DNA of 64,000 nt, taken from Neisseria chenwenguii. GTDB taxonomy: Bacteria; Pseudomonadota; Gammaproteobacteria; Burkholderiales; Neisseriaceae. The translations under genes and the position numbers were made by a program. Under the pieces are notes generated by a model. It did no database searches, was not told the DNA's origin, and saw only the letters and a list, made by a program, of their open reading frames with translations. The stretch covers positions 1,488,001 to 1,552,000 of the forward strand of contig NZ_CP022278.1 of assembly GCF_002216145.1 (NCBI RefSeq). Reading direction: 5' to 3'. Below, piece by piece: positions 27,595 to 42,254 of this stretch (its first letter is position 1; each line of letters starts with the position of its first letter).

Positions 27595-28665
27595 CTATAA
27601 ACCTAATTTTTCTTTGGTTTTTTCCCATACAGCTTCCAGCGTAATGGCTTTGAGCAGTCGGGTTTTATCATCGGTATGAATGGAGTCGGGGTGGGGGAGT
27701 TCGCTGAAGTCACCCGCCCAAATAACGGTGGCCTTGTCTGAATAAGGGCGCCAGCGATTGACCCAGCTTGGTCCGAACAGGGCGATTTGGGGTTTGTCGA
27801 GGGCGGCTGCGATGTGCATGGGAACGGAGTCAACACCGATAAAGAGTTTTGCGCCGTCTATTGCGGCAGCCAGCTCGCGCAGGTTGAGATTGCCGGATAG
27901 TGTACAAACATTTGAGCCTGCCGGAATATTTAGGCGCGCCAAGATTTCTGCCAACATTTTTTGTTCGTCTGCACTTGGTGCGGCGGTTAAAACGACGTTT
28001 TGCCCATGGTTGAGCAGTAGTTGCACTAGTGCGGCATTTCTGCCGTCTTCCCAACATTTAAACATCCAGCGCGAGCCGGGGTGCATCAAAACGTAATCTT
28101 GGCCCTGCCAACCTGCGGCGCGTAGTTTTTCATGCAGGCTGTTTCTGATTTTGGGACTGATTTCCATACGGACGCGGGGTGTGTAATCATCGGGTCGAAC
28201 GAGGGGCGGTAAAACGGCAAGATGCGCCTCAACGATGTGGTGATCAACGTCTAGCACAGGATTAAGGAAGTCATGCAGTTTTTTCCAGATGATGTTGTTC
28301 CGCTTTTTAATGCTGAAGCCGACGGTACATTTGGCGCAAAGTTTGGCAATCAATGCGGCGCGCCATTGATCGGAAAGGTTGAACGCCCAGTCGTAATTTC
28401 GGGCTTTGAGTTGGCGGAACAGCGCATATTCATGAAGGAGCCGGGCTTTTGTTCCCAGCTTTTTCCATTGGCGGTCGATAGTAAAAATCTGTGCGAATTG
28501 GTTGTTGTCTCGAATAATATCGGCGGTTTCGCTGTAAACCAGCATGTCGATTTCACAATCGGGAAAATGTTGTTTGACCGCATCGGCGACCGGCGTGGTC
28601 AGTAAAACATCGCCGTGATGGCGGAGCTTGATAATCAGGATGCGTTTGGGTTGGGAGAGAGACAT
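27595..28665 (-). CDS. GT9 lipopolysaccharide heptosyltransferase (WaaQ/heptosyltransferase III-like)
   Basis: The 356-residue GT9 protein begins RILIIKLRHHGDVLLTTPV, the acceptor loop of heptosyltransferases. MHPGSRWMFKCWEDGR and LFIGVDSVPMHIAAAL with ALFGPSWVNRWRPYSD match the ADP-heptose site and are closest to the WaaQ type. It would add a heptose to the LOS inner core at the cytoplasmic face of the inner membrane. gmhB at 54 kb supplies the heptose pathway. Which heptose is added cannot be decided here. Confidence 0.85.
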   Translation of the reverse strand: MSLSQPKRILIIKLRHHGDVLLTTPVADAVKQHFPDCEIDMLVYSETADIIRDNNQFAQIFTIDRQWKKLGTKARLLHEYALFRQLKARNYDWAFNLSDQWRAALIAKLCAKCTVGFSIKKRNNIIWKKLHDFLNPVLDVDHHIVEAHLAVLPPLVRPDDYTPRVRMEISPKIRNSLHEKLRAAGWQGQDYVLMHPGSRWMFKCWEDGRNAALVQLLLNHGQNVVLTAAPSADEQKMLAEILARLNIPAGSNVCTLSGNLNLRELAAAIDGAKLFIGVDSVPMHIAAALDKPQIALFGPSWVNRWRPYSDKATVIWAGDFSELPHPDSIHTDDKTRLLKAITLEAVWEKTKEKLGL

Positions 28666-28799
28666 ACTGGATTTTCAGACGGCCTGTTGATGATGAGCGG
28701 TATTGTAAGTGGAAAGGACGTGTTGGGAAATATTCTCTTTAATAGGAAGGTTTGGCGGAGTAGGGAGGCCGTCTGAAAAAACGTTGAAAGTTGGTTGAT

Positions 28800-28956
28800 T
28801 ATAGTGAAATAAAATAAAAAATCTACTTCGTTGGCTGGGGCCGGGCTCAAAGAGGACGATTCACTAAGGCGTTGAAGTGCCAAGTTCATCTGTCCCGTAC
28901 TACCCGTACTGTCTGCGCCTTGCCGCCTTATATTTTTCTTAATTTATTTCACTATA
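28800..28956 (-). repeat. Correia-like element, long form (157 bp), reverse orientation
   Basis: TATAGTG and CACTATA ends enclose the full core, here inverted relative to the other copies (GGCGTTGAAGTGCCAAGTTC, then GTACTACCCGTACTGTCTGC). The length is typical of the complete element. It lies upstream of pilF, where outward promoters or RNase III processing could matter. Confidence 0.87.
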
Positions 28957-29057
28957 TTTTCAGACAGCCTTAAATCATGAGAAAACGGTTTTTACGCCTC
29001 CGGAGGAATGTTTGTGGCGAAATAGTTTCTTTTGAGCCCGGAATTTCAGAAGTCGGT

Positions 29058-29085
29058 TTGAACCTCAGGCCGCTTGTTTTATAAT
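29058..29085 (+). promoter_or_regulatory. Candidate pilF promoter
   Basis: TTGAAC (29058-29063) and TATAAT (29080-29085) are 16 bases apart, about 90 bases before the pilF start. Both hexamers are close to the sigma-70 consensus. Confidence 0.6.
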
Positions 29086-29176
29086 AGCCGTCCATGCCGA
29101 ATGAGAGAATGAATAAAATGGTCGAAGCGGCTTTTTTCAGGTAAAAGGCTGAATTAATCAGTTGGGTTGATAGAAA

Positions 29177-30856
29177 ATGAGTGTCGGATTATTGCGCGTT
29201 TTGGTGCAGAGCCAAATTATTACCAGCCAGCAGGCTGAGCATTACAACAATGAATTAAAAACGGGTAAAAACGTATTGCAGATGCTGTTTGGCGACAAAA
29301 TCATCACTGCCAAGGCATTGGGCGAACTGCTTGCCCGTACGTTCAGCTATCCGTTGCTGGATTTTCAGTATTACCCACGCAACAATATTTTGTCGGACAT
29401 TCTGACGGAAGAGCAGATGGTGCAAAACCGCTGTGTGCCGATTTTCCGCCGTGGTCATAAGGTTTATCTGGCAGTATCCGATCCGACCCAAATCCAGAAT
29501 TTCCAGAAAATTACCTTTCATTCGGGCGCGACGGTTGATTTGGTTGTGGTTCCCGACGATCAGCTCAGCTCACTTTTGGAATGGCTCGGACAGCGTTCGA
29601 CCACCATTTTGAAAGAAATGAATCAGGAGCAGGAGGCGGCGCAACCGGCCCAAGCGCTGTATATCGATAATGAAGAGGCGGAAGACGGCCCGATTCCGCG
29701 TTTTATCCATAAAACGCTTTCGGATGCTTTGAGCGCGGGTGCTTCGGATATCCATTTCGAGTTTTACGAACAAATGGCGCGGGTGCGTTTCCGTGTGGAC
29801 GGCGTGTTGCGCGAAGTGGTGCAGCCTCCGGTCGCTGTGCGCGGTCAGTTGGCTTCGCGCATCAAGGTGATGGCGCGTTTGGACATTTCGGAAAAACGTA
29901 TTCCGCAAGACGGCCGTATTCAAATCGCCTTCCACAAACACGGCCGGCCGATCGACTTCCGTGTCAGCACTCTGCCGACTTTGTTCGGCGAAAAAGTGGT
30001 GATGCGTATTTTGAACTCGGATGCGGCATCGCTGAATATCGACCAGCTCGGTTTCGAACCTTTCCAAAAAGAAATGCTGCTGGAGGCGATTCACCGCCCT
30101 TACGGCATGGTGTTGGTGACGGGTCCGACCGGTTCGGGTAAAACGGTTTCGCTTTATACCTGTCTGAACATTCTCAATACGGAAGATGTGAATATTTCCA
30201 CCGCAGAAGACCCTGCGGAAATCAACTTGCCGGGGATTAACCAGGTAAACGTCAACGACAAGCAGGGTTTGACCTTTGCCGCCGCGTTGAAATCATTCCT
30301 GCGCCAAGACCCAGACATCATCATGGTGGGTGAGATTCGCGATTTGGAAACTGCGGATATTGCCATTAAAGCCGCGCAAACCGGCCACATGGTGTTTTCA
30401 ACGCTTCATACCAACAATGCGCCAGCAACCCTGTCGCGTATGCTGAATATGGGTGTTGCGCCGTTTAACATCGCCAGCTCGGTCAGCCTGATTATGGCGC
30501 AGCGTCTGCTGCGGCGTTTGTGCCCGAGCTGTAAGAAAGAGGTGGAGCGTCCGCCTGTACCGGCTTTGAAAAAAGCAGGCTTTACCGACGAAGATTTGGC
30601 AAAAGACTGGAAGCTGTACCGTCCGGTTGGCTGTGACAGCTGCCGCGGAAAAGGCTTCAAAGGCCGTGCCGGTATTTACGAAGTGATGCCGATTACCGAA
30701 GAAATGCAGCGCGTGATTATGAATAACGGCACCGAAGTCGATATTATGAACATGGCTTATCAGGAGGGTATGGTCGATTTGCGTCGCGCCGGTTTGCTCA
30801 AAGTTATGCAGGGGCTGACTTCTTTGGAAGAAGTCACCGCAAACACCAACGATTAA
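29177..30856 (+). CDS. pilF: Type IV pilus assembly ATPase PilF (PilB family)
   Basis: PilF is the hexameric extension motor in the cytoplasm. The 559 residues comprise an MshEN-type N-domain (about 1-140), the N2 domain and a RecA-like ATPase. Walker A is GPTGSGKT at about 316-323. The Asp and His boxes and Walker [11 protein letters not shown] follow. A zinc-binding tetracysteine is formed by LCPSCK and CDSCRGKG. In Neisseria this protein is called PilF, not to be confused with the PilF/PilW pilotin elsewhere. pilG follows 70 bases later. Confidence 0.96.
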
Positions 30857-30926
30857 TTTCAAACAATACAAAACCGAAGCAAGGGGATTGCTTCTCTCAC
30901 TTTCCAACAAACGCAAGGGGTAACTC

Positions 30927-32168
30927 ATGGCTCAAGCAGGGCAAAAACAAGGGGCGTTCGGCTCGAAAAGTAAAGGCAAACGCTTTACCTTTGAGGGTAA
31001 AAATACCAGTACCGAACAATTGGTGCGCGGCGAGGTCGTCGCCAAAGATGAAGAAGAAGCGCGTAAAAAACTCCAGCGCCGCGGCATCAAGCCGATGCGC
31101 GTGACCAAAGTCAAAGCAGTCCGCAAGAAACGGATTACCCAAGAAGACATTACCGTCTTTACCCGCCAGCTGGCAACCATGATGAAAGCAGGGCTGCCGC
31201 TGATGCAGGCGTTTGAAATCGTCGCGCGCGGCCATTCCAACCCTTCGATGACGCAGATGCTGATGCAGGTGCGCGCCGATGTGGAACAGGGTAGTGCGCT
31301 GGGTATTTCGTTTGCCAAATATCCCAAATATTTCGACCGTTTCTATTGCAACTTGGTCTCTGCCGGCGAGGCCGGTGGTGTTTTGGAGGGATTGCTCGAT
31401 AAGCTCGCGATTTATAAAGAAAAAACGCAAGCTATTAAGAAAAAAGTGAAAACGGCATTGACCTATCCTATTGCCATTGTGGTGGTTGCGGTGGTTTTGA
31501 TGTTTGTGATGATGATGTTTGTTTTGCCGGCATTTAAAGAAGTGTACGAGGGTATGGGCGCAGAATTGCCGGGACTGACCCAAATCGTGATGAACCTTTC
31601 CGATTTGTTTGTCGCGTATGGCTGGATGATGATTGTCGGCATCATTATTGTCGGATTCGGTTTGTTTAAACTGCATGAGAAATCACCGGTGTTTCAGAAA
31701 AAAGTAGATGCCGCTTTGCTGAAAATGCCGATTTTCGGCGGGATTGTACGCAAAGCGACGATTGCCCGCTGGGCGCGTACCACCTCGACCCTGTTTGCCG
31801 CGGGCGTGCCGTTGGTTGAGGCATTGGATTCCGTTGCAGGCGCAGCAGGTAATATTCTTTACGAAGAAGCAACCCAAGACATCCGCGCTAAAGTGGCGCA
31901 GGGTTTGTCGCTGACTTCCAGCATGCAGAGTACCGATTTATTCCCGAATATGGTTCTTCAGATGGCCGCGATTGGCGAGGAATCAGGCTCTTTGGACGAT
32001 ATGCTGAACAAAGCCGCCGAGTTTTACGAAGACGAAGTTGATAACGCCGTGGCGCAGCTTTCTTCAATGATGGAGCCGATTATTATGGTGGTGTTGGGTT
32101 CTCTAATCGGTACATTGTTGGTCGCCATGTATCTGCCGCTGTTCAACCTAGGTAATGTAGTAGGCTGA
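30927..32168 (+). CDS. pilG: Type IV pilus inner-membrane platform protein PilG (PilC family)
   Basis: The 413-residue protein has two GspF domains (about 70-190 and 275-400) and three membrane helices (near VVVAVVLMFVMMMFVLP, MMIVGIIIVGFGLF and MVVLGSLIGTLLVAMYLP). FTRQLATMMKAGLPLMQAFEI and FPNMVLQMAAIGEESGSLDDML are family hallmarks. It couples PilF to pilin insertion into the fibre. It ends one base before pilD. Confidence 0.96.
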   Translation: MAQAGQKQGAFGSKSKGKRFTFEGKNTSTEQLVRGEVVAKDEEEARKKLQRRGIKPMRVTKVKAVRKKRITQEDITVFTRQLATMMKAGLPLMQAFEIVARGHSNPSMTQMLMQVRADVEQGSALGISFAKYPKYFDRFYCNLVSAGEAGGVLEGLLDKLAIYKEKTQAIKKKVKTALTYPIAIVVVAVVLMFVMMMFVLPAFKEVYEGMGAELPGLTQIVMNLSDLFVAYGWMMIVGIIIVGFGLFKLHEKSPVFQKKVDAALLKMPIFGGIVRKATIARWARTTSTLFAAGVPLVEALDSVAGAAGNILYEEATQDIRAKVAQGLSLTSSMQSTDLFPNMVLQMAAIGEESGSLDDMLNKAAEFYEDEVDNAVAQLSSMMEPIIMVVLGSLIGTLLVAMYLPLFNLGNVVG

Positions 32169-32169
32169 T

Positions 32170-33033
32170 ATGGCAGAATATTTCAACGAGTTGGCTGCTT
32201 TTGCCATTCCTTTGGCAGCCGTTTTCGGTTTGCTGGTCGGCAGTTTTCTGAATGTTGTGATTTACCGCGTTCCCGTGATGATGGAGCGCGATTGGACGCG
32301 GTTTGCCAAAGAGCATTTGCATTTGGACCTGACCGAAGAAGAAAAACAGCCGTTTAATCTGGCCAAACCCGATTCCCGCTGCCCGAAGTGCTATTCGCCC
32401 GTCAAGGCTTGGCAAAATATTCCCATCGTCAGCTATATTTTGCTTGGCGGGAAATGCGGCACCTGTAAAACGCCCATCAGCAAGCGTTATCCTTTAATCG
32501 AGCTTCTGACTGGTATTTTATTCGCCGCGGTTACATGGCAATACGGCTGGACATGGATTACATTGGGCGGGTTGGTATTAACCGCCATACTGGTGGCGCT
32601 GACCTTTATCGACGCCGATACCCAGTATCTGCCCGACCAGCTGACTCTGCCGCTGGTGTGGTTGGGGCTGCTGTTCAATCTTAACGGCGCGTTTGCACCT
32701 TTGCACTCTGCCGTATTGGGCGCCGTTTGCGGTTATATGAGCTTGTGGCTGATCGCCAATCTTTACCGCCTGCTCCGCAACCAAGAAGGCATGGGCATGG
32801 GCGATTTCAAACTCTTGGCTGCCTTGGGCGCATGGCTGGGTGTGGGCGCTTTGCCGGTGTTGATTCTGATGGCTTCCGTTATCGGATTAACCGGCGCCGT
32901 GGTCATGAAAGTCGCTAAAGACCAACAGTTCGCCTTCGGCCCCAGTCTTGCGATTGCCGGTTGGGTGATGTTTATCGCCAACGAGCCGGTTTCCCGTTTG
33001 GTACAATGGTGGCTGACAAAATCAGGATTCTGA
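32170..33033 (+). CDS. pilD: Prepilin peptidase / N-methyltransferase PilD
   Basis: PilD cleaves and N-methylates prepilins at the inner membrane. The 287-residue protein has the cytoplasmic loop with two CxxC pairs (CPKC and CGTC), needed for zinc binding and methylation. The catalytic aspartates are in FIDADTQYLPD and in GMGDFKLLAALG (GxGD motif). About eight membrane helices are seen. It begins one base after pilG and ends one base before coaE. Confidence 0.96.
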   Translation: MAEYFNELAAFAIPLAAVFGLLVGSFLNVVIYRVPVMMERDWTRFAKEHLHLDLTEEEKQPFNLAKPDSRCPKCYSPVKAWQNIPIVSYILLGGKCGTCKTPISKRYPLIELLTGILFAAVTWQYGWTWITLGGLVLTAILVALTFIDADTQYLPDQLTLPLVWLGLLFNLNGAFAPLHSAVLGAVCGYMSLWLIANLYRLLRNQEGMGMGDFKLLAALGAWLGVGALPVLILMASVIGLTGAVVMKVAKDQQFAFGPSLAIAGWVMFIANEPVSRLVQWWLTKSGF

Positions 33034-33034
33034 A

Positions 33035-33649
33035 ATGACCGTATGGATCGGGCTTACGGGCGGCATCGGCAGCGGAAAATCCTCTGTTGCCGCCCGATTT
33101 TTCAAACTGGGCGTACCGCACATTGATGCCGACGCCGTCAGCCGCAGCCTGACTGCCGACGGCGGAAAAGCCCTGCCGCTTATCCGCGCCGCCTTTGGTG
33201 TCGGGATGTTTGACTCTGAAGGCCGTCTGAACCGTGCCGCATTGCGGGATGAAGTTTTCAGACGGCCTCAGTCTAAAAAAACGCTTGAATCCATCATGTT
33301 TCCTCTGATTTTAGAAGAAATCGGAGTGAAGCAGACGCAATATCCGCAGGCCGTTTACGGCATTGTTGACGTACCGCTGTTAATTGAACAGCCGCAGTTT
33401 TCGGCGTTGGTCAAACGGGTTTTGGTCATAGACGTGGCAGAAACCGTACAAATCCGCCGCGTACAGCAGCGCAGCGGTTTGGGCGAAAGCGAAATCCGCA
33501 GCATCATGGCCACGCAGGCTTCCCGCCGCGACCGCCTGCTTTACGCCGATGATGTTTTGTCCAACGAAGGCAGCGAAGCCGAATTGGCAGAAAAAATCAG
33601 CCGTCTGCACAATTTCTACCGCCATGTTTTGAAACTTAATGCCGTCTGA
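33035..33649 (+). CDS. coaE: Dephospho-CoA kinase CoaE
   Basis: CoaE phosphorylates dephospho-CoA to CoA. The 204-residue P-loop kinase has [12 protein letters not shown] at residues 6-17, [18 protein letters not shown] and the lid region [20 protein letters not shown]. In-frame DUS copies encode EGRLNRA and VFRRPQ. The last two codons and the TGA stop are formed by another DUS (GCCGTCTGA), so the uptake signal defines the C-terminus. The placement after pilD is common in proteobacteria. Confidence 0.95.
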
Positions 33650-33662
33650 AAAAGGAAACTGC

Positions 33663-33848
33663 ATGAGCCAAGCACTGACCGTCAAATGTCCGACCTGCCA
33701 AAAGCCCGTAAAATGGACAGCGGAAAACAAATACCGCCCGTTTTGCTCGCAGCGCTGCAAGCTGATCGATTTGGGTGAATGGGCAGAGGAAAAATACACC
33801 GTGGCGGCGGAAGAGGACGACACATTGTCGGAAGTGTTGAAGCATTAG
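33663..33848 (+). CDS. yacG: DNA gyrase inhibitor YacG
   Basis: The 61-residue zinc protein has Cys9, Cys12, Cys28 and Cys32 (CPTC and CSQRC) and [12 protein letters not shown], the YacG/DUF329 signature. The E. coli protein binds GyrB and inhibits gyrase. ATG 33663 follows AAAGGAAAC. An earlier ATG at 33639 is only part of the DUS in front. It closes the pilF-pilG-pilD-coaE-yacG unit. Confidence 0.92.
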
Positions 33849-34096
33849 GTTGTTGGAAAAACTGTCGCACTTTGAGGGATAGATGAAAAACAGCGGTTAA
33901 TCATGTGCAGAATGGCGCGGGATATTCGCTTGCTGTGCTTATGTCGGATTTCGGGAACAGAGAAAGAAATTATAGTACTTGTGGTAAAAGAGACACTTTT
34001 CAAGATTGGCATATTGGAAAATACGGTTTTGTTTTTGTAAAAAACTTGTAGTGATTATAATAACGAAACCATCAAATTTTGTAAAAACAAATAAAA

Positions 34097-35623
34097 ATGT
34101 ATTTAGAGGATAAGAATATACATCGGGGATTGATGGCAACCGTTATGTTGGTAACGGTTGCCTTTCTGTTATACCCAGCCTACCTTCCGATGGCTGATCT
34201 GCCGCAACACGCGGTACAAGTGGCGGTGCTGGATGATTTACTCAAAGGCAGAAGCCCGTGGTCGGATATGCTGGTTTTGCATTGGGATACGCCGTATTGG
34301 ACCACTTATTCGGTATGGCTGTTGCTACACCAGTTTATCGGGATGGCGTGGTCACCAAAAATTGTCGTCATCCTGATTTTACTGTTTTATATGGCTTCGG
34401 TACGCTTGGTTCGCCGGGCCTTCAGAGCAAGCCGGCTGACGGATTGGGTGGCTTTGACCTGCTTTTTCGGGTTTGCCTTTCAATGGGGATTTGTCAGTTT
34501 TCTTGCCGGTATTCCGGTCGGAATGCTGTTTTTGGCCGCCAATAAATTTTGGCTGGATACCCAAAAGCCAAAGTATCTGTGGATGATCGCTTTTTTAGGT
34601 ATCTGGTCGTATTACAGCCATGTCCTGACGTTTGCTTTTTTCTGTTTTATTTCCTACGGGATGTTTTTGGTAGATTTCCGCAGGCTGTCTTGGAAACAGC
34701 GGGGTATGCTGACGCTCCCGTATCTGCTGTTTGCAGGAATGCTGCTGCGTTATTTGACAAAGCCTAATCCTGAGCCGTTTATGTATTATCCGGAGGGGCG
34801 TTGGGAGAATCCGGGTATTTTTCAAAAAACTTCTGAGTTGCTGTTTTATCCGTGGAACATGGGGCAGCTCTTTTATTACGACTTCGCCTGCGCAGCGTTG
34901 CTGCTTGCTCCGCCCCTGCTCGGTTACCGGCCGAGCAGAGATGTAAAACGCTATGCCTTATTGCTTGGTAGTCTGGCAATATGGTATGCGCTTCCCCATA
35001 TTGGTTTTCAGACGGCCTATATCTATCAGCGGTTCGGATTGTTTGTGCCTGTATTCTGGTATTTGGTTTGGCAGCCCCAAGAGGCAGCGGGGCGCAGATA
35101 TGATATGAAACAGGTAGCTGTGACTGCGTTTGTGTGTGCAGTGGCGGCGCTGATGTTTAAAGTGTACAGCAATAATGTTTTGTTTGATTCTTCCGAGACA
35201 GTAAAGGATTTTGACGAAGTTGTCGCAACCATGCCGTCTGAAAAACGGATATTGGGCTTGGGCGAGCCGTTTATGTGGGGAGACGGCAAATTGACATCTT
35301 TTGCGGAATATCTGCATTTTGCTCAATGGTATCAGGTGAAAAAGCGCGGTTGGGCGGATTACAGCTTTGCTTCCGCACATGCAATGCCGGTTCGGCTCAA
35401 GCTGAAAAAAATGTATCCGGGATATGGCTATAACCGTTTGGTTGATGAGAAAAATCTGACTGAAATACTGGATTGTTCGATTTACAGCTATTTGCTTGTG
35501 CGCACCCAAAAAACACCGGGGGAGCTACAACGCCTGCTTGACCGCAACCCCCGCTGCAACAGTGTCAGACTGAATAAGCAGGCGGGGCAGTGGCTGTTGT
35601 TTGAAAATCCGGCGGTACAATGA
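34097..35623 (+). CDS. Polytopic GT-C-like membrane glycosyltransferase candidate (GtrC-like position)
   Basis: The 508-residue protein has about 11-12 hydrophobic helices and a C-terminal hydrophilic domain of about 130 residues. An acidic loop after the first helix (LPMADLPQHAVQ) and the large second loop (DTPYWTTYSVW) resemble polyprenyl-phosphate-sugar-dependent GT-C enzymes. I do not recognise an exact family. The context is decisive: its stop overlaps a GtrA flippase gene by four bases (ATGA) and a GtrB enzyme follows, which is where the acceptor-specific transferase of a Gtr system lies. The leader (33849-34096) is AT-rich and has no DUS. Confidence 0.6.
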   Translation: MYLEDKNIHRGLMATVMLVTVAFLLYPAYLPMADLPQHAVQVAVLDDLLKGRSPWSDMLVLHWDTPYWTTYSVWLLLHQFIGMAWSPKIVVILILLFYMASVRLVRRAFRASRLTDWVALTCFFGFAFQWGFVSFLAGIPVGMLFLAANKFWLDTQKPKYLWMIAFLGIWSYYSHVLTFAFFCFISYGMFLVDFRRLSWKQRGMLTLPYLLFAGMLLRYLTKPNPEPFMYYPEGRWENPGIFQKTSELLFYPWNMGQLFYYDFACAALLLAPPLLGYRPSRDVKRYALLLGSLAIWYALPHIGFQTAYIYQRFGLFVPVFWYLVWQPQEAAGRRYDMKQVAVTAFVCAVAALMFKVYSNNVLFDSSETVKDFDEVVATMPSEKRILGLGEPFMWGDGKLTSFAEYLHFAQWYQVKKRGWADYSFASAHAMPVRLKLKKMYPGYGYNRLVDEKNLTEILDCSIYSYLLVRTQKTPGELQRLLDRNPRCNSVRLNKQAGQWLLFENPAVQ

Positions 35624-35985
35624 ATATCGGGCAAAAATTCAAACATTACAGCATGGTCGGCATCGCCAATACGCTGCTGCATTTTGCGGTATTGGCCGGC
35701 CTGGTCACTGTGGCAAAGTGGCCGGTATGGGCAGCCAACCTTTTAGCATTTCTCGCGGCAACAGGGTTTGGTTTTTGGATAAATGCCAAATGGACGTTCA
35801 GACAGGTTCCGAAGAAAAAAACTTATCTGGGGTTTGTCTGCATGATGGCTGTTTTAGCAGTGTCAGGTGGTTGGCTGACGGATTTTTTTCAGCTTCACTC
35901 TGCATTTGCTTTGGTCATGACGGCAACCGGCAGTTGGCTTTTGGGCTTTTTAGGTTCGAATTTTTTAATCTTCAGGCAAAAATAA
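35620..35985 (+). CDS. GtrA family polyprenyl-linked sugar flippase
   Basis: The 121-residue protein has four membrane helices and the GtrA signature at the start: [20 protein letters not shown] and [17 protein letters not shown]. GtrA proteins are thought to move undecaprenyl-phosphate-linked sugar across the inner membrane. It overlaps the upstream GT-C-like gene by four bases and is followed after 7 bases by gtrB-like DNA. Confidence 0.87.
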
Positions 35986-35992
35986 AAATAAC

Positions 35993-36931
35993 ATGAATAT
36001 TTCTCTGGTTGTGCCCGTATTCAATGAAGAAGATACGATACCGTTGTTTTATCAGGCTGTAAGGGCGTTTCCGAAACTTCAAGACTACCGCGTGGAAATC
36101 GTCTTTATCAATGATGGCAGCAGCGATAAAACAGCGGAGTTGCTGGATATGTTGGCCGCTGCCGACCCGCTGGTCAGGCCACTGCATTTTACCCGTAACT
36201 TTGGAAAAGAAGCTGCGTTGTTTGCCGGATTGGAGCATGCGGGCGGGGATGCGGTTATTCCCATGGATGTGGATTTGCAGGATCCGATAGAAGTGATCCC
36301 GCTGATGGTGGAAAAGTGGCAGGAAGGGGCGGATATGGTATTGGCCAAGCGGACTGACCGTGCCGATGATTCCTGCTTCAAGCGGTGGAGTGCATCGGCA
36401 TTTTATAAGATCCACAATAAAATGAGCCGTCTGAAAATCGAAGAAAATGTCGGAGATTTCCGTTTGATTTCGCGGGAAGCATTGCAAAACATTGTCAGCC
36501 TGCCGGAGCATAATCTATTTATGAAAGGCGTTTTGTCGTGGGTGGGCGGCAATACCGCTGTGGTCGGGTACAGCCGTCCGCAACGGGTGGTCGGTAAAAG
36601 CAAGTTTAACGGCTGGAAACTCTGGAATCTGGCCTTGGAGGGCATTACGGGTTTCTCAACCGTCCCGCTGAGGATTTGGACCTATATCGGGATGCTTTTG
36701 GCCGGTTCGGCCTTTTGCTACGGAGCTTGGATTGTCATCCGCACCCTGCTTTTCGGGAGCGATGTCAAAGGTTACCCGTCTTTACTGGTATCGGTCTTGT
36801 TTTTAGGCGGTATACAGCTTATCGGTATCGGAATATTGGGCGAATACATCGGCAGGATTTATCAGGAAACGAAAAAGCGTCCCCGCTATCTGCTGAAAAA
36901 CAAAACGGTTAAGAAAAACGAATGGATTTAA
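35993..36931 (+). CDS. GtrB-like undecaprenyl-phosphate glycosyltransferase (GT2)
   Basis: The 312-residue GT2 protein begins [18 protein letters not shown], followed by [30 protein letters not shown] and the metal-binding PMDVDLQDP. Two C-terminal membrane helices (about 235-257 and 267-292) and the [19 protein letters not shown] tail are typical of GtrB/DPM1-like enzymes, which make undecaprenyl-phosphate-hexose. Sugar identity is unknown. The last ten bases overlap the methyltransferase gene. Confidence 0.88.
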
Positions 36932-37635
36932 AAGAGAGTGATATTTTAGGCAGCGACATCAGCCGGCACTGGTATTATCGGGCAAAAGCGCGGGCTGTAA
37001 CCGAACTTTTAAAGGGACAGGATTTTTCGCGCATTTTGGACGTAGGCGCAGGTTCGGCCTTTTTTACGCGCTACCTTTTGGAAAATACAGTCGCACAATC
37101 CGCCTGCTGTGTAGACATCAGCTACGGGGCAGACAGAAACGGAACGTATGCGGACAAACCGGTCAGCTTCCGCCGGAATATTGAAACTGCCGATGCAGAT
37201 TTGGTGCTGATGATGGATGTATTGGAGCATGTTGAAGACGACTTGTCATTGTTGCAGGAATATATCGGAAAAGTGAAAAATGAAGGGGGAGTAAAATTTC
37301 TGATTTCCGTACCGGCCTTCCAATTTTTATGGAGCGGACATGATGTGTTTTTAGAACATTGCCGCCGCTATAATCTCCAAGAGTTGGAAAATGTCGTTAC
37401 AAAGGCAGGTTTGCGCATTATCAAGAGCCATTACGGCTTTGGAACGGTTTTTCCCATTGCCGCCGTAACCCGTATGGCAGGCCGTCTGAAACCGCAACGG
37501 GTTGAGTCGCAATTGAAAATCCATCATCCGGCGGTTAACGGATTTTTATCGGCTTTGTGCCGCTTGGATTTGCCGGTTCAGCATCTCAACCGCCTTGCCG
37601 GATTAACGGTATTCTGTCTGGCGAAAAAGGATTGA
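36922..37635 (+). CDS. Class I SAM-dependent methyltransferase of the Gtr-like cassette
   Basis: The 237-residue protein has SAM motif [16 protein letters not shown] (about 34-48), an acidic post-I loop [14 protein letters not shown] and [12 protein letters not shown], the usual core of small-molecule or sugar methyltransferases. It starts inside the end of the gtrB-like gene, so it is co-translated with the cassette. Methylation of the transferred sugar or its lipid carrier is a plausible inference, not shown. One DUS lies in frame (AGRLKPQR). A DUS terminator follows directly. Confidence 0.8.
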
Positions 37636-37637
37636 CA

Positions 37638-37675
37638 AAGAGGCCGTCTGAAAAATCTTTTTCAGACGGCCTCTT
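37638..37675 (+). terminator. Inverted DUS terminator after the Gtr-like cassette
   Basis: AAGAGGCCGTCTGAAAAA and its reverse complement are separated by two bases, giving a perfect hairpin 2 bases after the methyltransferase stop. Confidence 0.75.
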
Positions 37676-37750
37676 GCCGCAAACGCCGTCTGAACGCGCT
37701 TTCTGCTATACTCAATCCCTGTATTCAATGCCAACCCAAAAGGATAAATC

Positions 37751-38899
37751 ATGAGCAAATTATTCCCCCAAGCAACCATGCGCGACCGTGCGCCTTACCG
37801 TTTCGATATTGTCGGCAGCTTTTTGCGTCCGGAAGCGCTGAAGCGGGCGCGCCGCCAATGCGCTTGCGGCGACTGTTCGGCCGAAGCGCTGCACAAAGTG
37901 GAAGACGAGGAAGTTTTGCAGTTGATTGCCAAAGAAAAAGCAGTCGGCCTGCCCAACGTCACCGACGGTGAATTCCGCCGCACTTGGTGGCATTTGGATT
38001 TTCTGTTTGAACTTTTGGGCGTGGAATTGATTGAAACCGAGCAATACAGCACGCAGTTTAAAGCGACGATGCACCGCCCCGTGACCTTAAAGATTACCGA
38101 TAAAATCGAGTTTCCCAAAGTTCACCCGTTTTTGAATCATTTTAAAGCCTTGCAGGAAGAAGCCGACGGCTATCCCGTGAAATTTACCATTCCGTCACCG
38201 AGTATGCTTCACCTTATTACCTGCGTGCGCACGCCCAATCCGCAGCTGATTGAACGCTATGCGGGCAATAACGACCTGCTGTTGGCCGACATCACCGCCG
38301 CCTACATCGACGCCGTTAAAGCGTTTTACGACGCAGGCTGCCGCATTCTCCAGCTCGACGATACCTCTTGGGGCGAGTTCTGCTCGGAAGAAAAACGCGC
38401 GCTTTACGCCTCGCAAGGCGTGGATGTGGACGCTACTGCCAAGAGTTATGTGAAAATGCTCAACGACATCCGTGATGCCGCGCCTGCCGATATGGCGGTT
38501 ACCATGCACATCTGCCGCGGCAACTTCCGCTCGACTTGGTTCTCCAGCGGCGGTTACGAGCCGGTGGCCGAAATCCTGTTCGGCGGCTGCCGTGTGGACG
38601 GTTTCTTCTTGGAATACGACAGCGACCGCGCCGGCGACTTCAAACCGCTGCGTTTCATCAAAGACCAGCAAGTCGTGTTAGGTTTGGTCACTTCCAAAAC
38701 AGGCGAACTGGAAAGTAAAGAAGCCATCATCGAGCGCATCAAAGAAGCCGCGCAGTATGTGGACATCAACCAGCTCTGCCTCAGCCCGCAATGCGGTTTT
38801 GCCTCTACCGAAGAAGGCAACGAGCTGACCGAAGAAGACCAATGGAAAAAACTGGCGCTGATCCGCAGCATCGTTGAAGAAGTGTGGGGCAGCAAATAA
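37751..38899 (+). CDS. MetE-like cobalamin-independent methionine synthase family protein (YxjG type)
   Basis: The 382-residue protein resembles the C-terminal catalytic half of MetE. It has RFDIVGSFLRPEAL, NVTDGEFRRTWWHLDFL, LQLDDTSWGEFC, the zinc ligands in HICRGN and in LCLSPQCGF, and a Glu in between (FFLEYDSDRAGDF). Such short paralogues (YxjG/YxjH) transfer a methyl group to homocysteine from a folate or another donor. The exact donor is not known from sequence. The ATG follows AAAGGATAAATC. A DUS hairpin follows. Confidence 0.87.
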   Translation: MSKLFPQATMRDRAPYRFDIVGSFLRPEALKRARRQCACGDCSAEALHKVEDEEVLQLIAKEKAVGLPNVTDGEFRRTWWHLDFLFELLGVELIETEQYSTQFKATMHRPVTLKITDKIEFPKVHPFLNHFKALQEEADGYPVKFTIPSPSMLHLITCVRTPNPQLIERYAGNNDLLLADITAAYIDAVKAFYDAGCRILQLDDTSWGEFCSEEKRALYASQGVDVDATAKSYVKMLNDIRDAAPADMAVTMHICRGNFRSTWFSSGGYEPVAEILFGGCRVDGFFLEYDSDRAGDFKPLRFIKDQQVVLGLVTSKTGELESKEAIIERIKEAAQYVDINQLCLSPQCGFASTEEGNELTEEDQWKKLALIRSIVEEVWGSK

Positions 38900-38917
38900 T
38901 CCGCTGTTGAGATAGAC

Positions 38918-38966
38918 AAAGGCCGTCTGAAATCCGGTTACCGTAGCCGAAATATCAGACGGCCTT
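38918..38966. terminator. Inverted DUS pair between convergent genes
   Basis: AAAGGCCGTCTGAAAT and ATATCAGACGGCCTTG form a hairpin between the MetE-like gene and the convergent DNA ligase. It may serve both. Confidence 0.6.
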
Positions 38967-38979
38967 GTTTTCAAACGCT

Positions 38980-39789
38980 TTACTTATCCCGCCGCACCCG
39001 CAGAAACGTCGCAAAACGCGGCGTGCCTTTTTGGGTAAATCCGCGGTAGCGGTAGGTGATGAGTGCGCCGACGGGTGGCGGGTTGACGCGGTCGGTGTCT
39101 TTGAAACCGCTGCCGATTTTAAATTCGCCCAATTCGTTTTTACAGCCGACCGCGCCGAGCCTGCCCGCGTTGCGGCCTTTGCCTTCGTAGTGGCGCGTGA
39201 CGGTGCATTCCGCGTCGTGTTCGCTTTTGAGTTTCAGCAAAAGGCTGCTGCGGCCGCTTTGGTAGGCGGAATCAGGGTGGCGCAGCATTACCCCTTCGCC
39301 GCCGGCGGTTTCTACTTCTTTTAAAAACGCTTGCGCGTGTTCGGCGCTTTTCACGGGCGTTTGCGGGATAACGGCGATGTTGGCGTCGGGATGGAGGGTC
39401 AGCCAGTTTTGCAACACGGCGAGCCTGCGATAAAGATTGCCGCCGGCTTGGGGAACGTCGAAAACGTGCAGTTTGATGCCGCGCCAGTCACCCGATTCGG
39501 TGCGGACGGCGGCAGAAATCTGTTCAAACTGCCCGCGCGCACTGAATAATTCGCCATCAAGCGGGTAGGGCGGAAAATGGCGGGTGTAGCCTTTGGGCGG
39601 GGTAAACGCGTAGCCTTGGCGGCTGACCAGCCGTTTGCCGTCCCAATAGGCGCGCACACCGTCGAGCTTTTCGCTCATCGCCCAGCCGGTAATGTTTTGG
39701 TCTTTATATTCCTGCGCCAGCATCAAATCCGCGCCGTAGGCGGCGGCGCTGATGAAAAGTGCGGCGAAAATCGGTATGATGGTTTTCAT
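38980..39789 (-). CDS. Secreted ATP-dependent DNA ligase
   Basis: From ATG 39789 the product is 269 residues. A signal peptide (MKTIIPIFAALFISAAAYGA) is followed by the ligase core. Lys41 in SEKLDGVRAYW is the adenylation site, LDGELFSARG is motif III, GGEGVMLR is motif IV and LLLKLK is motif V. An OB-fold ends the protein. This is the minimal ATP-dependent ligase known from Neisseria, Haemophilus and Campylobacter, predicted to act in the periplasm. A link to uptake of nicked DNA is an attractive inference in this competent genus. An in-frame ATG further upstream would destroy the signal peptide. Confidence 0.92.
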   Translation of the reverse strand: MKTIIPIFAALFISAAAYGADLMLAQEYKDQNITGWAMSEKLDGVRAYWDGKRLVSRQGYAFTPPKGYTRHFPPYPLDGELFSARGQFEQISAAVRTESGDWRGIKLHVFDVPQAGGNLYRRLAVLQNWLTLHPDANIAVIPQTPVKSAEHAQAFLKEVETAGGEGVMLRHPDSAYQSGRSSLLLKLKSEHDAECTVTRHYEGKGRNAGRLGAVGCKNELGEFKIGSGFKDTDRVNPPPVGALITYRYRGFTQKGTPRFATFLRVRRDK

Positions 39790-40092
39790 GTTTTCCCTGA
39801 TGTTTTTATTAGACGGGTTATTATACCGAATGATTGAAATGCCGTCTGAAAAATATGCGTTTGGGTTTTTAGGCGGCCTTTGCCAGTTATAGTGAAGTAA
39901 AATAAGAAAGATACAAGGCGGCAAAGGCGCAGACAGTACGGATAGTACGGGACAGATGAACTTGGCGCTTCAGCGCCTTAGTGAATCGTTCTCTTTTGAG
40001 CTCAGCCGCAGCCGACGAAGTAGATTTTTTATGAAGTAGATTTTTTATTTTAATTCACTATAAAATCAGATTGTTAATTTAAGGAACCAAAT
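39790..40092. other. Divergent region between DNA ligase and MBL hydrolase
   Basis: About 300 bases contain a DUS at 39840 and a Correia-like element (39888-40062). The remaining sequence is AT-rich leader. No gene is seen. Confidence 0.5.
39888..40062 (+). repeat. Correia-like element with internal duplication (175 bp)
   Basis: TATAGTG and CACTATA ends and the full core (GGCGCTTCAGCGCCTTAG) are present. Compared with the 157 bp copies it is longer because GAAGTAGATTTTTTAT occurs twice in tandem just before the right end. It precedes the MBL hydrolase gene by 30 bases and may carry its promoter. Confidence 0.85.
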
Positions 40093-40725
40093 ATGTCTTT
40101 GCAGTTTGAAATTATCGCGGTTACGCCGTTCCGCCAGAATTGCACTTTATTATGGGACGACGAAACCAAAGAAGCCGTGTTGACCGACGTGGGCGGCGAT
40201 GTGCCGTATCTGCTCAAAGAAATCAAATCCAAAGGTTTGAATGTTAAGGAAATTTGGCTGACACACGGCCATCTCGACCATGCGGGCGGGGTGGTGGAAT
40301 TTTTGCGTCATCACGATGTGCCTGTTATCGGGCCGCACGAAGACGATGAGTTTCTGTTGCAATCCCTACCAGAAACCACGGCGGGTTACGGTTTTCCCGT
40401 ATCGCCCGCGTTTGTGCCGACGTGTTGGCTGCATGAGGGCGAAACGCTGTCGGTGGGCGCGTATGAGTTTCAGGTTTTACATATCCCCGGCCATACGCCC
40501 GGGCAGGTGGTATTTTACTGCGCGGCGGCGGATTTACTGATTGCGGGCGATGTTTTGTTTTACGAAACTATCGGCCGAACTGATTTTCCGCGCGGCAATC
40601 ATCACGATTTAATCAGCAATATCAAAAGCAAACTGCTGGTGTTGCCCGAAGCAACCCGCGTGATAACGGGGCACGGCAGGATGACCACCATCGGCCACGA
40701 GCGGCGCCATAATCCGTTTTTATAA
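40093..40725 (+). CDS. MBL-fold metallo-hydrolase (glyoxalase II-like, YcbL type)
   Basis: The 210-residue metallo-beta-lactamase-fold enzyme has the binuclear zinc motif THGHLDHAGG (His58, His60, Asp62, His63), HIPGHTPGQVVFY, LIAGDVLF and ITGHGRMTTIGHE. Short members like this are YcbL-type type II glyoxalases, hydrolysing glutathione thioesters; other MBL substrates cannot be excluded. The leader is mostly Correia-like sequence. Confidence 0.9.
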   Translation: MSLQFEIIAVTPFRQNCTLLWDDETKEAVLTDVGGDVPYLLKEIKSKGLNVKEIWLTHGHLDHAGGVVEFLRHHDVPVIGPHEDDEFLLQSLPETTAGYGFPVSPAFVPTCWLHEGETLSVGAYEFQVLHIPGHTPGQVVFYCAAADLLIAGDVLFYETIGRTDFPRGNHHDLISNIKSKLLVLPEATRVITGHGRMTTIGHERRHNPFL

Positions 40726-40955
40726 GTTCAGAGAAGTTTGCATAAGCTAAAGAGTTAGTAAAAAGAGTTTAAATTCAAGGGCGCGGGGTAGGATTTTCCA
40801 GACGGCCTGTTGTAGTATTGCGACCAAATTCAGAGATTTTATATACAGGGGTTTGCAGGCGTTTTGCCTGCAAAGCCGTTTTTTCAACCGGAAAAACAGC
40901 CGCGGAACCATCCGTCGTCCCGTCATTTTTTTCTACCATCATTGAGGAAACAGCG

Positions 40956-42254
40956 ATGTCTTTTGATTTGGGTAATTTATTGCAAAACCAAGTAGGCGGC
41001 GTTTTGAGCCAATTCTTGACCGCTAACGGCGAAAATGCCGAAAACAGCAGCAAAGCGGCCGGTTTGGCCGTGCCTGCACTGGTAGCCGGTTTGGTCAAAC
41101 ACGTCAGCGGCGGCGCAGGCAATGCTTCGAGCTTGGTTGACTTAATCAGCGGCGCAGGCGGCCAAAATCTGAGCGACACCGTCGCCCAAGCCGCAAACGG
41201 CAATGTCGGCGGCCTGACCGAACTGGGCAACAAACTGCTGCCGCAATTTTTGGGCGGCAACGCAGCCAGCGTGTCCGACCAAATCGCACAGGAAAGCGGC
41301 GTTTCCAAGGCCGCCGCAGGTTCGACCCTGTCATTGGGTCTGCCGCTGGTATTGTCGGCGCTGCGCGGTAAAGCGCAAAGCGACAACCTGGGCGGTTCGC
41401 AAATTCTCGGCCTGCTCGGTCAACAGCAGGGCTGGCTTTCCAGCGCCCTGAGCAGCAATATGCTGTCTGCGCTGGGCATCGGCAGCCTGGGCGGCCTGTT
41501 TGGCGGCTTGGGCAACATCGTCAGCGGCTTCGGTGCAGCGGGCGCGACTACTGCGGCAGTCGGCGGTACGGCTGTTGCAGCCAAATCGGGCGGCGGCACC
41601 GGCAAATGGATTGTTTTGGGCATTGCGCTGTTCGCTGCATTGTTTGCCTTCAAGAGTTGCAGCGACAAAAAAGGCACAGCGCCGTCTGAAAGCGCCGCGT
41701 CCGCAGCCTCTGCCGCATCCGGCGCATCGGGCACTTCCGACAATGCTATGCTGACTGATATTCCTGCATCCGGCGCATTCGCCGCGGCTCTGCCTTCGTC
41801 TGCACCGGCTGATTCTTCCGCTTCTTCCGCTTCTTCCGCTTCTTCCGCTTCTGCTGCATCTCAAGCGGCTGCCGCCTCTGCGTCTGCCGACGCTTCCGCC
41901 CCTGCTGCGCAAAACAGCGCCAACGCCCGCGTAGTGTACGAAAACGGCGTGGCCAAATTCTATTTTGCCACCGGTAAAAACGACATCGCCGACGGCGCAG
42001 AAAGCATTGTTGCCGACGTGATTACCGCAGGCAAAGAAGGCAAAAAACTGGTCATCAGCGGTTTCACCGACAGCACCGGCAACGCAAAATCCAACGAAGC
42101 CCTGTCGAAAAAACGTGCCCAAGCCGTAAAAGCCTTCTTTGAAGCACAAGGCGTGAAAGCCGAAAGCATCGAATTGCGCAAACCTGAAACCAGCGTCGGC
42201 GCACAAGGCAACGATGCCGAAGGCCGCCGCGTCGAAGTCAAAGTCGAAGGTTAA
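40956..42254 (+). CDS. DUF937 plus OmpA-like envelope protein
   Basis: From ATG 40956 (behind GAGGAAA) the 432-residue protein has an N-terminal DUF937 domain (about 1-190), a Gly-rich stretch, one membrane helix (about 206-222, WIVLGIALFAALFAFKS), a Ser/Ala-rich linker and a C-terminal OmpA-like peptidoglycan-binding domain (YFATGKNDIADGAE, ISGFTDSTGNAKSNEALSKKRAQAV, GRRVEV). It probably spans from the inner membrane to the cell wall. The linker is partly coded by a nine-base tandem repeat at 41812. The open frame extends to 40818 without a better start. Confidence 0.85.
   Translation: MSFDLGNLLQNQVGGVLSQFLTANGENAENSSKAAGLAVPALVAGLVKHVSGGAGNASSLVDLISGAGGQNLSDTVAQAANGNVGGLTELGNKLLPQFLGGNAASVSDQIAQESGVSKAAAGSTLSLGLPLVLSALRGKAQSDNLGGSQILGLLGQQQGWLSSALSSNMLSALGIGSLGGLFGGLGNIVSGFGAAGATTAAVGGTAVAAKSGGGTGKWIVLGIALFAALFAFKSCSDKKGTAPSESAASAASAASGASGTSDNAMLTDIPASGAFAAALPSSAPADSSASSASSASSASAASQAAAASASADASAPAAQNSANARVVYENGVAKFYFATGKNDIADGAESIVADVITAGKEGKKLVISGFTDSTGNAKSNEALSKKRAQAVKAFFEAQGVKAESIELRKPETSVGAQGNDAEGRRVEVKVEG
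41812..41850 (+). repeat. Nine-base tandem repeat in the OmpA-like gene
   Basis: TTCTTCCGC repeats about four times, encoding Ser-Ser-Ala units of the linker. Because the unit is nine bases, copy-number change would alter linker length without a frameshift. Confidence 0.75.

Follow-up and report, generated by a model that had tools for sequence, protein, structure and literature searches.

At positions 34097 to 37635 of a 64,000-nucleotide stretch of the Neisseria chenwenguii genome (contig NZ_CP022278.1, 1,488,001 to 1,552,000; hereafter the window), four genes form a compact cassette whose probable task is to attach one sugar, perhaps a methylated one, to a structure on the cell's exterior. 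As judged from its protein families, the cassette is a variant of the Gtr systems in which phage-type GtrA and GtrB are joined by a methyltransferase and by a putative enzyme of GT-C fold from a family without a name. In window coordinates, the open reading frames (ORFs) and the features that flank them are as follows, with DUS denoting the DNA uptake sequence and SAM denoting S-adenosylmethionine.

34097-35623, plus strand: gene for a 508-amino-acid membrane protein of predicted GT-C fold, first of the four (ORF call)
35620-35985, plus strand: gene for a GtrA-type small membrane protein of 121 amino acids (PF04138)
35993-36931, plus strand: gene for a GtrB-type transferase of 312 amino acids (PF00535)
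36922-37635, plus strand: gene for a class I SAM methyltransferase of 237 amino acids (PF13489)
33849-34096, plus strand: AT-rich leader without a core DUS (34.7% G+C)
37641-37672, no strand: hairpin that closes the cassette, formed by an inverted pair of AG-type DUS with copies at 37641 and 37661

The coupling of the genes is exactly as claimed in an earlier sequence-only reading of this DNA, with a 4-base overlap between the GT-C and GtrA genes, a 7-base gap between GtrA and GtrB, and a 10-base overlap between GtrB and the methyltransferase. The AT-rich, DUS-free leader and the terminal DUS hairpin of that reading are likewise present, the latter absent from the sites listed by a terminator scan. 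G+C content is 48.2% in the cassette and 53.6% in the window, and four core DUS lie inside the cassette (-35007, 35233, 36426 and 37481); it is therefore somewhat AT-rich yet bears the uptake sequences of the genus. A promoter scan gave no plus-strand site in the leader and 4 sites in the whole region against 5.6 expected. Phase variation was considered and rejected, as no tandem repeats were found at 33600-37800 and no GATC in the leader. The cassette is real and not a product of chance, because the same four genes are found together in Neisseria polysaccharea, Moraxella oblonga and, split by a contig break, Neisseria viridiae. Their order in N. polysaccharea (L037) is that of N. chenwenguii, and in M. 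oblonga it is methyltransferase, GT-C, GtrA and GtrB amid unrelated surrounding genes. Scattering of the genes among relatives, which would have spoken against the original proposal, is thus not seen in the nearest ones.

The GtrA flippase and GtrB polyprenyl-phosphate sugar transferase families named in the sequence-only reading are supported by profile matches. GtrA matches PF04138 above the cut-off (E 7e-14) and PHROG 2224, 'GtrA-like O-antigen conversion' (1.1e-20); it is 33% identical to YfdG of an E. coli prophage and is proposed to be the flippase of the lipid-linked sugar. GtrB matches PF00535 (E 2.3e-32) and PHROG 841, 'GtrB-like O-antigen conversion' (479 bits). Its identity to YfdH of the E. 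coli cassette intS-yfdG-yfdH-glucosyltransferase, 71% over 308 columns, exceeds that to the GtrB of N. polysaccharea (67%). In a 24-row tree, the window's GtrB groups with YfdH and with the GtrBs of N. viridiae, N. polysaccharea and M. oblonga in a single clade (100/100) without a resolved inner order. Collectively these similarities assign GtrA and GtrB to the phage O-antigen-conversion type. Among solved structures, GtrB matches cyanobacterial sll0501 (8e-90) and ArnC (9.5e-44), and an excerpt of one paper describes GtrB of the YfdH type as an undecaprenyl-phosphate glucose synthase (PMC11127046). Since its kinship is with such synthases and with sll0501, glucose is the likely sugar, and the GtrB of the cassette probably makes undecaprenyl-phosphate glucose.

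Turning to the 508-residue protein, no match was found in Pfam at E up to 1 or in PHROGs at E up to 0.01, and NCBIfam gave only two weak matches far below their cut-offs (best 0.02), so that neither Pfam nor NCBIfam recognises the ArnT/PMT sequence family in it. The earlier statement that it fits no nameable family is upheld for the copies of these three databases searched. A search of PDB sequences with a profile of the GT-C protein returned 33 matches at E up to 10, the best of them a short one at 0.12. Structure prediction, the check that had been proposed, bears out the GT-C-like character of the protein: its AlphaFold2 model (pLDDT 92.0) has a predicted GT-C fold by Foldseek and VIA-align comparison, and ArnT is a full-length fold match with 9% identity in the fold alignment. 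On the basis of this model, it is proposed to be a periplasmic transferase of GT-C fold. A protein search found 20 other members of the family, which we call 'DLPQH' (our own name); 16 relatives reach 39% identity or more. While a scan of genome contigs with the single protein returned no relatives, an alignment scan (293 stretches) located 46 loci that encode them. Close behind the first helix, Asp34 (codon 34196-34198) is conserved in 20/20 rows of alignment A1 covering that position and in 62/62 aligned GT-C rows, 42 of which come from loci gathered by a pattern set that contains the motif; this count leaves out four of the 46 loci, with short or split frames (L046, L047, L078 and L083), and proteins P0001 and P0016. 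A conserved acidic residue in the first periplasmic loop is a mark of the GT-C superfamily; the loop that bears Asp34 may be periplasmic and Asp34 catalytic. Kin of the GT-C protein in phages or plasmids were sought and rejected, with no tblastn match in either and 0/224 pattern stretches confirmed in viral contigs.

The fold match to ArnT, together with the ArnC match of GtrB and the occurrence of the GT-C family in many other Gram-negatives, raises the alternative that the cassette is an ArnT-like or Rgt-like system that modifies lipid A or the core of the lipooligosaccharide (LOS) in the periplasm and not a polymer. We judge this rather unlikely: GtrB is much closer to the prophage O-antigen-conversion GtrB than to ArnC, the run has no deformylase-like gene, and the fold cannot tell acceptors apart. 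That the GT-C protein is instead an oligosaccharyltransferase moving a whole glycan to protein seems very improbable.

The methyltransferase proposed for the cassette is confirmed as a family member (PF13489, E 8.1e-13; model pLDDT 89.6). A structure search returned class I methyltransferases (best 2p7h, 1.4e-10) with no hint of substrate, and the best solved relative by sequence scored 0.17. A protein search gave 4262 matches at E up to 0.001; among the 120 matches listed, the 119 besides the window's own protein are 55-62% identical over 99-100% of the length. Its occurrence is patchy: 1/369 genomes of the class (E up to 1e-40; the N. chenwenguii genome itself), 2/399 of the order (E up to 1e-50; one again itself) and 37/65 in the genus of G690, which we judge to be Burkholderia-like.

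The same family stands beside GtrB in plasmid and phage-contig cassettes. Among 72,556 plasmid records, one has a match at E up to 1e-30, the Deltaproteobacteria plasmid CP026659, whose locus (L112) reads GtrB, methyltransferase, GtrA and a hypothetical protein of family DUF6311, with overlapping genes. On the other strand beside this run (L112 1-4874) lie genes annotated as an ABC transporter, glycosyltransferases and a phosphomannomutase, a possible acceptor locus. A scan of predicted viral contigs found the methyltransferase at seven loci (L115-L121). In the three with an upstream side (L115, L116 and L117), 3 bases separate the methyltransferase from the GtrB before it; the GtrB of L115 is incomplete. 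Downstream are GtrA and a 573-amino-acid protein in L117 and a 526-amino-acid protein in L115, neither large protein with a Pfam match, and the contig end in L116. Phage tail genes lie nearby in L115 (PF10076 and PF04865) and L117 (PF05954). The phages collection gave no match to the methyltransferase, so the phage evidence rests on the predicted viral contigs. DNA of the L115 cassette matched one of 5426 E. coli genomes over 2% of the query, within yfdH; at that sensitivity, no E. coli copy of this cassette was seen.

A different behaviour is found elsewhere. In the Burkholderia-like genus (L122 6576-7557 and loci L114 and L123-L151), 30/30 loci read have no tblastn relative of GtrB, GtrA or GT-C within 1.5 kb of the methyltransferase, which is therefore able to exist without Gtr neighbours, and the single locus checked for tRNA genes has a tRNA-Pro at a distance of 0.2 kb. 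These copies form one clade with two viral-contig copies (99/100). The remaining four viral contigs, L118-L121, start with the methyltransferase gene or no more than 25 bases from it, as though this were where prophages end, and the only adjoining ORF scanned among them, in L119, is a Pfam phage integrase. Such loci favour a rival reading, in which the methyltransferase is an independent passenger acting on the acceptor glycan while this is still in the cytoplasm, perhaps so as to hide a phage receptor, and the Gtr proteins add an unmethylated sugar. However, pairs of GtrB and methyltransferase that overlap or stand 3 bases apart, in unrelated hosts and with unrelated membrane proteins behind them, make a passenger unlikely.

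Partners are also exchanged on the side of the GT-C family. A GtrB-type gene is within 500 bases of the GT-C gene in 17/46 loci, and of 22 GtrB-type ORFs in all, 17 lie within this distance; the binomial p is 3e-6 for the bases concerned, with loci that are not independent, several being close Burkholderia relatives. L047, with its split frame, is missing from the 17. Partner GtrBs compared in the Burkholderia relatives and Aggregatibacter are 33-40% identical to that of the window. Methyltransferase ORFs occur near GT-C in Burkholderia relatives and others, and three of them (L044, L051 and L074) are confirmed by Pfam; being only 26-27% identical to the window's over the main match, these are not counted as the same component. 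Partners thus vary on both sides in a mix-and-match arrangement: the GtrBs that go with the GT-C family, and the membrane proteins that go with the methyltransferase family. An excerpt on Salmonella offers a parallel, with GtrA and GtrB conserved and GtrC variable (PMC3688519). Kinship of the GT-C protein with the E. coli prophage transferase, DUF6311 or the 526- and 573-residue proteins was rejected because hhalign gave it a probability no higher than about 0.5% in any comparison, always with one sequence on the other side, so that distant kinship is possible. Within the family, A. actinomycetemcomitans DSM 8324 (L047 7980-9498) and Burkholderia sp. lig30 (L046 7791-9485) have the GT-C gene broken into two ORFs; A. 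actinomycetemcomitans HK_961 (L042) has it as one. Three family ORFs stand in tandem in a Thermoanaerobaculia metagenome-assembled genome (L068 7980-12495).

Within Neisseria, the cassette is found in three genomes of a 46-genome sample. The GT-C protein, the methyltransferase and a close GtrB (at least 67%) occur in the same 3/46, the window's own genome included, and 35 more have weaker glycosyltransferase matches only. GtrA exceeds the Pfam cut-off in 4/46; the fourth genome (G011) carries a different trio of GtrA, a family 2 glycosyltransferase and a DUF2142 membrane protein (L094 5404-8138), adjoining a gene that we take to be glyS-like. In N. chenwenguii, the ORFs before the cassette follow the order given by the sequence-only reading, with yacG identified by PF03884 and preceded by what are presumably pilF, pilG, pilD and coaE. 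In N. polysaccharea, the flanking genes are presumably guaB-like and dedA-like. Ten other Neisseria pilD stretches (L085-L093 and L095; 5.8-6.7 kb) all contain pilD, coaE and yacG, and none has a GT-C match, including those of N. polysaccharea (L088) and N. viridiae (L091). The gene after yacG differs among the ten, with the same pilF-like one in L088, L091 and L092. A cassette that sits elsewhere in N. polysaccharea and is absent from ten pilD stretches makes adjacency weak evidence for a pilus role; the position next to the pilus genes looks accidental, and a pilus link was rejected on this comparison of sites. Of the original proposal, then, the Gtr-like gene set, the GT-C fold and the attached methyltransferase stand, while a meaning for the place beside the pilus genes does not. 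Directly after the cassette is a gene for a MetE-like protein (PF01717; 37751-38899), of which a close copy (at least 83%) is found in 9/46 genus genomes, the window's own included, and a short weak match in one further genome; a second MetE-like copy (46%) lies at 121 kb in the N. chenwenguii genome.

Specific decoration of pilin, or of a Pgl glycan borne by pilin, would fit the adjoining pilD-coaE-yacG genes and two further features. All three cassette genomes encode a Wzy_C protein with frames of 650-654 amino acids, which we take to be the size of PglL, and N. chenwenguii has at about 622.5-631.6 kb (L108 10555-19617) a locus that is presumably pgl-like. We nevertheless consider this improbable, given the other site in N. 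polysaccharea, the L088 and L091 pilD stretches without the cassette, the varying gene after yacG and the unrelated surroundings in M. oblonga. The L108 locus encodes a Wzy-like protein of 423 amino acids, whose PF04932 match falls under the cut-off, together with three glycosyltransferases, an ATP-grasp protein, a sugar-phosphate transferase and a protein of Wzx type; the glycan of this locus may be a polymer. The other two cassette genomes have one PF04932 frame each above the cut-off. A search of the three genomes for O-antigen genes, using PF04932 and PF13440 only, brought out no common polymer. LOS and the Pgl glycan are candidate acceptors, and nothing links the cassette to either.

Taken together, these observations lead us to a reading that we regard as moderately probable, namely a Gtr-type decoration with a single sugar. 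GtrB would place a hexose on undecaprenyl phosphate, glucose taken from UDP-glucose being the likeliest, and the methyltransferase would O-methylate the carrier-linked sugar at the cytoplasmic face. GtrA would then flip the lipid-linked sugar to the periplasmic face, where the 508-residue GT-C enzyme would hand it to a periplasmic surface glycan, either LOS or one linked to undecaprenyl pyrophosphate, such as the Pgl glycan. Since SAM is cytoplasmic, methylation after transfer is unlikely. Several points weigh against this reading. The methyltransferase fold, as modelled, is generic, and the Burkholderia-like loci show the gene standing apart from Gtr relatives. The top two NCBIfam matches of GtrB are PgfS of streptococci (297 bits, cut-off 500) and ArnC (173, cut-off 529), both below cut-off. 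No GtrB was counted within 500 bases in 29/46 GT-C loci, a figure that takes in L047 (GtrB hidden by the split frame) and L050 (a methyltransferase in between), and some of the contigs end nearby. Lastly, the Aggregatibacter locus has, besides the GT-C gene, only a distant GtrB (34%).

A wider proposal, tentative enough that we lean slightly against it, is a distinct Gtr class in phages, plasmids and chromosomes, in which GtrB and the methyltransferase form a core, in most cases joined by GtrA, and the O-methylated glucosyl lipid that this core exports is used by interchangeable, unrelated GT-C enzymes; the Neisseria cassette would be its chromosomal form, with DLPQH as the new GT-C family. 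If the methyltransferase acts on the carrier-linked sugar, Gtr systems could deliver modified sugars. Some of the O-methyl sugars of bacterial surfaces could come from such systems, and a methyltransferase adjoining GtrB would serve as a marker for finding such cassettes. For the GT-C family itself, the searched copies of Pfam, NCBIfam and PHROGs have no model. Neisseria is best known for short LOS and Pgl glycans, and O-antigen-conversion genes are now found in this genus. Among the matches listed in the open-access literature, titles and abstract openings mention neither a Gtr cassette in Neisseria nor a methyltransferase as a Gtr component. As a partial precedent, an excerpt on Actinoplanes describes a GtrA cluster of 11 genes that includes a methyltransferase-domain protein (PMC13390465).

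Among known systems, gtrABC of Shigella, Salmonella and E. coli prophages shares with the cassette the GtrA and GtrB families, the close identity of GtrB already given, overlapping genes and, according to the excerpt cited above, a variable GT-C partner (PMC3688519). Three hallmarks of Gtr systems are present in N. chenwenguii in one operon, as a GtrB-type transferase, a GtrA-type protein and a predicted GT-C protein. The cassette differs in its order of GT-C, GtrA, GtrB and methyltransferase, in the methyltransferase as an extra component, and in a GT-C protein without sequence kinship to its E. coli counterpart (0.1% probability by hhalign, with one sequence on the E. coli side). No tRNA lies at 28000-42000, and inspection of the window ORFs by eye showed no integrase; a prophage or tRNA setting is not a defining feature of chromosomal copies. 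O-antigen is at most a possible target here. In the Arn pathway, which comprises ArnC, ArnD, ArnE/F and ArnT, a carrier-linked sugar is modified before flipping. The likeness is that a sugar would be built on a lipid, altered and flipped there, and then passed on by a GT-C enzyme of ArnT fold; the differences are a methyltransferase in place of the deformylase and a GtrB closer to phage GtrB than to ArnC. The three-component GT136 pentofuranose systems, as an excerpt presents them, likewise use a lipid-monophosphate donor, a flippase and a GT-C enzyme (PMC11127046), whereas the present cassette has a GT2-type GtrB and GtrA and not a phosphoribose synthase and a MATE flippase. Closest in the placing of the methyltransferase are CP026659 and L115-L117, where GtrB is immediately followed by a member of the same family; L112 and L117 have GtrA as well. 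Their membrane proteins (DUF6311, 526 and 573 amino acids in CP026659, L115 and L117) are without detected kinship to the 508-residue family, and their GtrBs are 53-56% identical to that of the window.

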